Source: Utricularia gibba (lineage: Eukaryota > Streptophyta > Magnoliopsida > Lamiales > Lentibulariaceae). Taken from it: a stretch of DNA of 64,000 nt. The notes beneath the pieces are model-generated. The model was given only the letters and a program-made list of their open reading frames with translations. It did no database searches and had not been told where the DNA came from. Position numbers and translations under genes: made by a program. The stretch spans positions 1,240,001 to 1,304,000 of the forward strand of contig NEEC01000010.1 of the NCBI GenBank assembly GCA_002189035.1, in the 5' to 3' direction. Numbering within the stretch: position 1 is the stretch's first letter; each line of letters begins with the position of its first letter. Positions 22,127-35,873 of this stretch are shown here, piece by piece.

Positions 22127-24092
22127 ATGCTTTCATTCGTCAACATCTTCTGTTTCTTGAGCTTCCTTTTATATGCCTCATTTGCCGGAGTCGGCGCCGG
22201 TGCAGCATGCAGCTCCGTCTCTGCCATATACCAATTCGGTGACTCTACATCCGATACCGGAAACGCAGTCCGGTTGCTTCCAATACTGCAAGCCAGCAGA
22301 GCCCCTTACGGCGAGACATATCCTGGATCCGCCACCGGCCGTTGGTCCGACGGCCGTCTCGTCATCGATTACATAGGTACCAATAATTCTGTTTATTTCC
22401 CGGCTACTCTTTCGCGGTTACTCACATCGTTCAAGGACCTGTACAGCCGACAACTTTGGAGTTCCTGAGCTGAACCCATTTCTGAATATACTCGGTTCCT
22501 TCAAAGGGGGTGCCAACTTTGCGGTTGCCGGATCCACAGCAATCGATACCGCATCTCTTTTGTTGCGTTACGGCATTGTGTCTGCTGCACTTCCTTATCT
22601 TTCATTACAAGTGGAATGGTTTCAGTTTTATCTTTTCACACAATGCTTCACCAAGTCAGGTTCGTAGGGGACTGAGAGAGGGTGCCCAGTACTTTCTTTA
22701 CGTGGAGGGAGGCAAAAACATCAGAGTTTGTGAATCTAAATCTTAAAAACTTGAATTTGTTGAAATTGATGATACCATGAGTACATATGATATTCAAATA
22801 CATAGATCATATTAGAAAAAATAGACTTAATCAATTATTATTGATTTATAATTTATTAGATATTTGATTATTTCATTTTAAAATTTTGATATAGAATTTT
22901 TTATTCTAATATTTGTCATCAGGTTAAATTAATTTTTAATCAGGTTAGGATTTTTTTTTTGTGATTGTAAATAATACTTGAATTATAAATCAATTTAATT
23001 TTTATCATCTAAGTTCAATGTATCTTTTTGTTTTGTTTTAACTAATACTAAACTCACCTTAGCTACCCAAATCATGTCATGAGTCAATTGTTTTGTTATG
23101 TTAATCATATTAAAAAAATTATATTCAATCAATTATTCATGATTTGTAATTTATATGTTTGATTATTTTGATCTGGATTTAAAATTATTTGTTCTAATAC
23201 CCGTTTTCAAGTTGAATTAGTGTTTGATGGAATTTTCGAAAGTATTCTTTCAAGTCATGACCTATGCGAACATGCATCTCTACTCCTGTCCTGATCCCGT
23301 TCACATTGCCTGGACTTGTGTAGAATGTGTGCGCACAAACTTCTTGAATGCATCTTTGATCGTCTTCGGGAAGACTGGATCCAACGATATCATCGCAGGA
23401 GTTTCCTCAGGATTATCAGTCTCAAAACTCCAAGCATTGATCCCTGATATAATATCAACCTTTACCTCGAATCTTGAGGTGGGCTTTCGAACTGGATTCT
23501 TGTTGAAAATTGTTGAAAATTTTACTGTATCTATCTGTGCTCTTGATCAGGAAGTGATCTCTTGGGGCGCTTCGAAATTTCTGGTTCCGGGGTATTACCC
23601 TCTCGGATGCCTAACCATCGGAATAGCTCTGTTCGCCAAACTGAACTCGACATTGGACAGTTTCGGCTGTAACGTACTCGAGAACGACCTCGCTCAGCAG
23701 GCAAACTCGCAACTTCAAACTGCTATTCAGAATCTCTCCAAGACGTACCCGAACGTGACCATCACATATCTGGACAACTACAGTGCTTTCATGAATGTTT
23801 TTGCAAACGCAGCTTCCTACGGTGCGCACCTGAACCCATTTCTTCCCCTTCTTCTGATTCTTAGGGTTTTGCAATGTACCCAGGGTTCCAGCAAACCACC
23901 CAAGCTTGCTGCGGAAGTGGCACCGTCAGCCCAACCAGCCTGCAATTTTGCGGCGGTCCGGGAACCTCAACATGTCCGGACGTGAAGAAGTTTGTAAATT
24001 GGGATGGGTACCATCTAACGGAAGCTGCTAATGCACGTATATTCGAGTATCTTAAACCATCCATCGCATCTGCTGCCGGGTGCACCGCATGA
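22127..24092 (+). CDS. Secreted GDSL esterase/lipase (frame broken at the last exon junction)
   Basis: SGNH/GDSL hydrolases are secreted serine esterases acting on lipids, acyl sugars or phenolic esters. Exons: 22127-22376, 22447-22659, 23324-23478, 23551-23821 and about 23865-24092. A signal peptide covers residues 1 to about 26. Block I is YQFGDSTSDTGN with the nucleophile Ser40. The Gly/Asn blocks are GGANFAVAGSTA and GKTGSNDI, and the catalytic Asp/His pair is WDGYHLTEAA in the last exon. The last junction is wrong: the only GT donor (23822) gives a 43-nt intron and, joined to the AG at 23863-23864, puts the last exon one base out of frame. One T fewer in the TTTT at 23867-23870 would restore the frame. 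So this is either an assembly error or a young pseudogene. Intron 2 carries copies of a dispersed repeat. The exact enzyme is not identifiable. Confidence 0.85.
22790..23225 (+). repeat. Two tandem copies (A and B) of the dispersed repeat inside GDSL intron 2
   Basis: Copy A runs from about 22790 to 23025 and copy B from about 23090 to 23225. Both have the attatatt(a/c)-type head, a tcaatta core, and an attatttgttctaata-type tail. They account for most of the unusually long (664 bp) second intron. Confidence 0.6.
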
Positions 24093-32134: not shown

Positions 32135-34344
32135 CTATTTGGTTGATGCATAGCTACGCTGTTCTCTTGCTTCCAGGGCATCAACTTGCTCATTGGACAG
32201 CAGGTCAACCAAGGGCTGATAAGCATCCCACTCTTTCCGCTTCCTGAGTTGGGTTAACAACACAACATATCAGTTAACTGGTGTTTGGTCGCTGCCTCAA
32301 CTTCACAAAAACCGGGCACTGTTATCATGCTACAACCGGAACCAGAAAGCATTATGACTCACCGAACCACGCTTGATTTGTTGCCAAACAGCTTGAATAA
32401 ATCCACTGCATTCCCTGCGGCCTTACTGAGGAAGCAGGAGGGAATTGGAAGGCTTATATACTTCAGTTGGAAGGAAAGTTGAAGTGGGGTTGAGAGGAGA
32501 GAATTATGTGAACTTAATGCAAAAGGACCTGGCTTGGAAATGTTCAAGTGCTCTGCGTCCTTTCTTGTTGATTCTACTCTCACGTATTGAGGTTACGTTT
32601 TGTACAGCAATCTGCTCTTGGCAAAGAAAAAAATAATGAATGAGAAATCCGCATTGCATAAAAACTGCATGGTACCTATTCCAAGGACTAACGCACCTCA
32701 TAAAGTTGTTCCCTGATGGAAACTGCAACAACTGGCTGCAATGGTTATTCAATATTATTAGGCTTGCAGTGGTGCAGTCATGAGTATACTGAACCAATCA
32801 ACAAGATGCAAGAAAGACTGTGCTGGAGGTAAGAGAAATTTTATCATGGCAGATATGTAGGTAATTTGGCGTAGCTCACTCCAACTTCAGGATCTTGAAT
32901 GCCCAAGTCTTTGCATAATATTTTTGCAAATTCTTCGGGATCACTTTCAGAGTTGTTCAAATCCTGAAAATATAGAACAGCATCCCATCATTATCTGGTG
33001 CAAAGATCACATTTCATGGCTGATGATGTAAAAAAAATCTTCAGTTTTCTGACCCATAAAAATTGGTCCTTAATGACTGTATGATTCACACGGATATCAA
33101 GCTGCAAATAAAGGTGAAGGGGAAGAATAAGCATACGTCATTAGATAATGACCATGCAAAACCTTAATGAAAAATGACCATGCAAACCTTAATGGGACAA
33201 TCTTCTCACCAGTATACATATCTTGGCCCTCAAAAGACCGAAATTCTCCCAGCTGGGCCTACAAAAGGATATAAAAAAAATCTAGCTTCGGATAAGTGTA
33301 TAGAGTTCGTCACATATCAGCAGGCATATCAATCTTAATGCAGCAAGCATGCAACGAATATGATCAGGACACCTTGCAAATGAAAAATTCCACAGAAGAC
33401 TCCTAGTTACTATCAAGTTCTACCACGTCAATGAACAATGCCAGATATAGTGAACAAAAACTTCCTCTCATGAGCATATCACATGATGATGAGGAAGAGT
33501 TATGATAAATTTGGATTTAATAGTCAATCTTCTCAATGCAGATTAAAACATTGATGACATATATCGCACCCAATTCAAAAATATGTATCGAGAAACTATG
33601 ATCAAATGAAATAGCAGCAAGATTGAATCAATGTTCTCCACACATGAGCAAGTCAAATGATATGAATGCCAGAATTCAGTGCCTGATAGCTATTAAGATT
33701 TACTGATCAAGAAGAATGTCTCACAAAGCACCTGTATTGATTGTGTTATCTGCGTAACAAAAGCAGGGGGTAACTTCAAATCTTTCACTGTTCTTTTAGC
33801 AAAAACCACCACTTCAGAGTCTGGGTCTACATTGATAATAACTTAATATCAACCAGTCTGGACATCAGAGAGCGCACACAACTTATCAAAGCAGGAAGAA
33901 AAAGGAAAACTAAGACATACAAACATGTGAATCAAAACCCGCATCTTGGAAAAACTCATCAACATCCAAATTTCATATTTTCCAAGAAAATACGCCGGGA
34001 TATCAACATTATTACTAATCAAAATGTAATTTTTAAACATCCAAACAAGAAGAATGATATGCCAGCGAGATTCGTAAAAGGGAACATCTTGGTAATAGTC
34101 ACAGAAATACAGGAAAAAACCGGATGGGTTCCAGAGAAATGCATCTTTATATCTTTGTCCGTCAATGTCAATATCTAGTCTTATAGGAACCAGGTTGTCT
34201 GCCGTAGGCCTGAAAATTAGCTATATAAGAATCAATATTCACCAAACCAAAATCAGAAATTTGTGAAACTCAAATTTGTTCTAGATATTACATCCGGAAT
34301 TTGACTGGGTGTTTAGCAGTGCCATATGCCGAGTGCGACTTCAT
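32135..34344 (-). CDS. BSH: BUSHY (BSH), SNF5/SMARCB1 subunit of SWI/SNF chromatin remodellers, about 252 aa
   Basis: Core subunit of BAF-type SWI/SNF complexes in the nucleus. Exons, minus strand: 34292-34344, 34121-34209, 33732-33826, 33163-33258 (outer donor) or 33188-33258 (inner donor), 33054-33101, 32880-32963, 32697-32735, 32529-32611, 32363-32425 and 32135-32243. SNF5 repeat 1 is VPIRLDIDIDGQRYKDAF...AKRTVKDLKLP (residues about 22-75); repeat 2 is LDIRVNHTVIKDQFLWDLN...EEFAKILCKDLG (about 112-150). The C-terminus is SSVVRKRKEWDAYQPLVDLL. The exon-4 donor is tandemly duplicated: the inner copy loses frame, while the outer copy keeps it and inserts eight residues (about 102-109) just before the conserved IK-LDIRVNH. 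Length without the insert equals the usual 240-244. Confidence 0.93.
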
Positions 34345-34797
34345 GATTCTACTTCTCACTGTACAAATGAACACAATCCAAATCCCAAATCAACAATAAA
34401 CCTTAAAATTTCCGAGCAAAAAACCGTCAGAATGTACGAAAATCGAGGAATAAACCGAGGGCTTTTCATCCATTCTACAGTCTCAAAATCTGAGACTTCG
34501 TTAAACCCTCAATCCACAAATTGACACTCGGAAGTTTAGTAAGCTTACCCCTTTGTAAACACTCCCGCTATGATTCAGGTTCAAGTGGCCAGGGACGGCT
34601 GATCTGAAGAAAACGCTGTCGTTTTAGAGATGACCACGTGAGTGAGTTATAGGGATAGTTCCGTCATTTCAAGTTCAAAACGAACAAGCCTGGAAACTTC
34701 GAACTCCCTATATATAATAAATTCCCTCATTCAAGACGACTGTGGAAAGGTGATTGCCCTAATTTGAGAGGAGTGTTTACGCATTCTTGAAGGTCCG
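34345..34797. promoter_or_regulatory. Divergent promoter of BSH and cytochrome c, with G-box and TATA box
   Basis: 453 bp between the two start codons. On the cytochrome c side there is CACGTG (G-box, 34635-34640) and TATATATAATAA (34709-34720), 78-89 bp before the ATG at 34798. The BSH side has no TATA box and probably carries a leader exon near 34500-34560. Confidence 0.65.

Positions 34798-35873
<1,076 letters not shown>

Follow-up and report, generated by a model that had tools for sequence, protein, structure and literature searches.

The BSH (BUSHY) gene of Utricularia gibba, which encodes the SNF5/SMARCB1 subunit of plant SWI/SNF, raises a question that its assembled sequence allows to be answered in two ways: the donor of exon 4 lies in a short stretch that is present twice, so is it the inner or the outer donor that is used, and is the resulting protein of ordinary or extended length? 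The reading that we favor, and to which we assign a probability of about 0.65, is that the micro-duplication is real, that the inner donor is used, that a single base is missing from the assembly at this point, and that the gene encodes an ordinary BSH protein. The first-pass annotation of the locus had named this as the outcome that would refute its proposal, and it is now the likelier case. Unless a contig is named, the positions below refer to the window, i.e. the whole 64-kb stretch of DNA that was analyzed.

The gene and its exons are as follows, the exons being taken from the splice model and its translation:

32135..34344, minus strand: BSH (SNF5/SMARCB1-type) gene, from the splice model and translation, Pfam SNF5 and PDB relatives
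34344-34292, 34209-34121 and 33826-33732, minus strand: exons 1-3
33258-33188 (inner donor) or 33258-33163 (outer donor), minus strand: exon 4
33101-33054, 32963-32880 and 32735-32697, minus strand: exons 5-7
32611-32529, 32425-32363 and 32243-32135, minus strand: exons 8-10

According to the splice model together with the profile and PDB alignments, the gene is complete, with 10 exons, both SNF5 repeats and the C-terminal region. Its spliced product matches Pfam PF04855 (SNF5) over residues 22-246 with 123.4 bits (cut-off 21.8) and aligns over both repeats with the PDB chains of human SMARCB1 and yeast Snf5. All exons other than exon 4 are open and joined in frame with intact splice sites, and BSH therefore looks functional. 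The gene resembles BSH throughout, and the difference is limited to the eight residues in dispute ahead of repeat 2. Searches of the genome by Pfam family, DNA and protein matched this one locus and yielded no second copy for comparison, so SNF5/BSH is apparently single-copy in the genome; as expected, no relatives were found among the prokaryotic genome contigs.

The doubling of the donor region is directly visible in the letters, where ~25 bp (25/26 bp) are present twice, at 33147-33169 and 33173-33195:

33173..33195, minus strand: inner copy of the duplicated unit, donor AAG/GTTTGC
33147..33169, minus strand: outer copy of the duplicated unit, donor AAG/GTTTTG

The two units lie head to tail, each with an AAG/GT donor, and on the plus strand they read AATGACCATGCAAAACCTTAATG (33147-33169) and AATGACCATGCAAACCTTAATG (starting at 33173). 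They differ by a single base, one A on the plus strand and thus one T on the coding strand, which is absent from the inner copy. A scan for duplicates (period 15-60, at least 20 matching bases, low-complexity sequence excluded) found this to be the sole tandem pair of its kind in the 64 kb, and 20 first-order Markov shuffles contained no comparable tandem pair; Tandem Repeats Finder did not report the duplication. Elsewhere in the window, a 14-bp tandem duplication is located at 22396-22423 in a GDSL-lipase-like gene, where it probably falls within a short intron of ~85 nt.

The consequences of the two donors for the reading frame can be stated with equal directness:

33188..33258, minus strand: exon 4 when the inner donor is used, 71 nt that end in GTCCCATTAAG and lack one base to stay in frame
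33163..33187, minus strand: 25 nt joined to exon 4 by the outer donor, a net gain of eight residues, LRFAWSFF
33102..33187 (inner donor, 86 nt) or 33102-33162 (outer donor, 61 nt), minus strand: intron 4, from the splice model

With the inner donor (33188), translation loses the frame and terminates at codon 108, within the following exon, whereas use of the outer donor (33163) extends the exon to 96 nt, maintains an open frame through all exons and yields an intact protein of 252 aa, in which LRFAWSFF occupies residues 102-109. Among the GT sites in this region, 33163 alone produces an in-frame exon that retains the IK; the GT site at 33199 (ATT/GTCCCA) is in frame as well, but VPIK is lost. 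A GC donor at 33184, which would give an in-frame exon of 75 nt, was rejected, as TTT/GCATGG is a poor site. We also looked for alternative acceptors that might rescue the inner donor, and only a single AG lies within reach. Hence, much of the first-pass annotation stands, including the two near-identical units, each with a 5' splice site and differing by one A, the 71 nt and premature stop of the inner donor, and the 96 nt, retained frame and IK, and eight residues at 102-109 of the outer donor.

The end of exon 4 indicates what a repaired frame might look like. Val-Pro-Ile-Lys is expected here because the matching stretch of repeat 1 is VPIR, and GTCCCATTAAG is one base short of it. Val-Pro-Ile-Lys would be encoded by GTCCCCATTAAG or GTCCCAATTAAG. 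Both copies of the unit carry a C ahead of ATTAAG, a possible sign that the sequence here was once CCCCATTAAG. One missing base would be the sole ground for rejecting the inner donor, and loss of a single base from a short homopolymer is frequent in this assembly.

Intron length bears upon the choice between the donors. The other eight BSH introns measure 82-473 nt, while 71 introns estimated elsewhere in the genome have a minimum of 66 nt and a median of ~97. The latter were taken from neighboring exon matches in the chaperonin (Cpn60/TCP1), proteasome and Ras families, with the proteasome and Ras lengths resting on profile coordinates; one further profile pair, at -1, was left out as a frame break rather than an intron. 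For the 25 chaperonin introns modeled to the base, the minimum was again 66 nt. An outer-donor intron of 61 nt would consequently be shorter than all 79 other introns examined in the genome, whereas the inner-donor intron of 86 nt is within their common range, which favors the inner donor. Goodall and Filipowicz are said to have placed the shortest length at which a plant intron still functions near 70 nt in 1990. Without the extra copy, intron 4 would be ~61 nt, and one could speculate that the duplication may even contribute to holding it clear of the minimum length.

Donor strength is less informative. A generic plant donor matrix, typed in from general knowledge, scores the inner donor at 3.2 and the outer at 0.5, whereas a matrix built from 25 donors of the same genome rates them about equal, and we have therefore given this comparison little weight.

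The U. gibba PacBio assembly was produced with HGAP at 88-fold coverage, with 581 contigs given (PMC5793159); the assembly searched here comprises 100 Mb in 516 contigs. One-base homopolymer deletions do occur in its coding sequence, as can be seen both in GRAS genes and in redundant contigs. GRAS genes are mostly intronless, so their frame breaks measure indels, and across some 45 GRAS loci there are ~20 candidate breaks, mostly beside C or G runs, including one real short intron (L038) and a few others resting on weak matches. By our own estimate, this count suggests that every 10 kb of coding sequence holds ~1-3 errors. Three GRAS genes (L034, L035 and L039; G000 C375, C142 and C1) are one C short at the same conserved Gly-Gly-Pro-Pro stretch; C runs are thus subject to systematic error in this assembly. 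The redundant contigs, which are nearly exact duplicates of genome parts (L019/L020 and L028/L047/L052; C316, C422, C416 and the end of C414), exhibit 0-1 mismatch versus 1-10 indel sites over 1.0-4.1 kb, mostly of one base and including frame-breaking changes of CCCC>CCC and CC to C; these direct contig-to-contig errors come from small contigs or contig ends. Since such contigs duplicate genome parts, this assembly may lead to an overestimate of gene number. In a Ras-family gene (G000 C409:2079247-2079551), adjacent profile matches differ in frame and leave no space for an intron, likely reflecting a one-base indel.

Based upon these features, we infer the following sequence of events for the favored reading. 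A real micro-duplication of 25/26 bp spans the 5' splice site of intron 4 of SNF5/BSH in a compact plant genome. The upstream, inner donor would be the one mainly used, leaving an intron of 86 nt in which the downstream, outer copy would serve as intronic filler carrying a cryptic donor. The 25 nt at 33163..33187 are accordingly more likely to be the start of intron 4 than exon. The frame break at GTCCCATTAAG most likely reflects one base that was lost in long-read assembly, with a short run, CCCC for instance, as its probable place, and the real protein would be an ordinary BSH. Several observations weigh against this. It would have to be coincidence that the error occurred only a few bases from the duplication, and as the inner copy is also without the T, there would be either two clustered errors or one real difference. 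The proven errors are found in small contigs and contig ends, whereas the BSH locus is interior to a 3.5-Mb contig, and the breaks in interior GRAS genes were deduced from paralogues. Furthermore, the frame obtained through the outer donor is open in the assembly and leads to the IK that would be expected, and the genome's own donors do not separate the two sites.

Considerably less probable is that the assembly is right, that the outer donor is used, and that BSH carries LRFAWSFF in the linker before the second SNF5 repeat. The 96-nt exon is open and keeps its IK, and the linker is variable in length (18 residues in human, 24 in yeast and 27 here with the insert, by PDB chain count). If the Pro codon was originally CCC, the change would be a pure 24-nt insertion. 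One templated insertion that follows GTCCC and has the donor region as its source would yield the eight residues without a frameshift. We consider it slightly more doubtful still that such a templated copy gave the conserved SNF5 eight mostly hydrophobic residues via a 61-nt intron near the plant lower limit. Introns of 56 bp have been cited as validated (PMC6310983), and the 61-nt intron is evidence against the outer donor, not proof. Despite this, the inner donor is upstream and at least as good, and a stretch this short would be open in perhaps one case out of four by chance. Use of the outer donor to make a BSH longer by eight residues, as the first-pass annotation had proposed, is thus not supported, since it needs an intron shorter than all the others.

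Considerably more remote is a real frame break with the inner donor partly or wholly used, in which case the gene would be damaged or would give mostly truncated, decaying transcripts together with some outer-donor product. The stop at codon 108 and the two similar donors 25 nt apart are compatible with such a scenario as assembled, but the genome searches found no second copy to take over, and the open exons and intact splice sites elsewhere in the gene argue against abandonment. It is most improbable that assembly created the duplication, for while it is known from one assembly, with no independent copy of the locus, its two copies are not identical, and the redundant contigs differ mostly by losses of 1-2 bases with gaps of at most 7 bases and no 25-base gain.

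Returning to the favored reading, both of its components have precedents. In a potato RdRp gene, a tandem duplication spans the junction of intron 1 with exon 2 and the new intron has been confirmed (PMC4974935). As in that gene and in the AGGT-duplication model of intron gain, a short tandem duplication in BSH extends over an exon-intron boundary, so that a splice signal is present twice, although in BSH it is the donor side that is doubled, over only ~25 bp, without a new intron. Homopolymer deletions are likewise familiar from PacBio-only (HGAP) assembly, and the conserved codon of BSH is similarly one base short beside a C run; elsewhere in the assembly CCCC>CCC is observed with a frame break, whereas at BSH the lost base is one that we infer. 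The BSH donor duplication is real but small and of a known kind, while the extended protein is unproven and has a lower probability than the loss of a base from the assembly; the evidence calls for no new kind of system. Were the extended BSH true, it would represent a recent splice-site duplication altering a core chromatin remodeller. Gene models from long-read-only assemblies can also gain invented residues when one missing base is accompanied by a nearby cryptic donor that restores the frame.

A cytochrome c gene on the plus strand lies head to head with BSH, with ~450 bp separating the two start codons (window 34344-34798). Given this arrangement, the two genes may share a promoter region.
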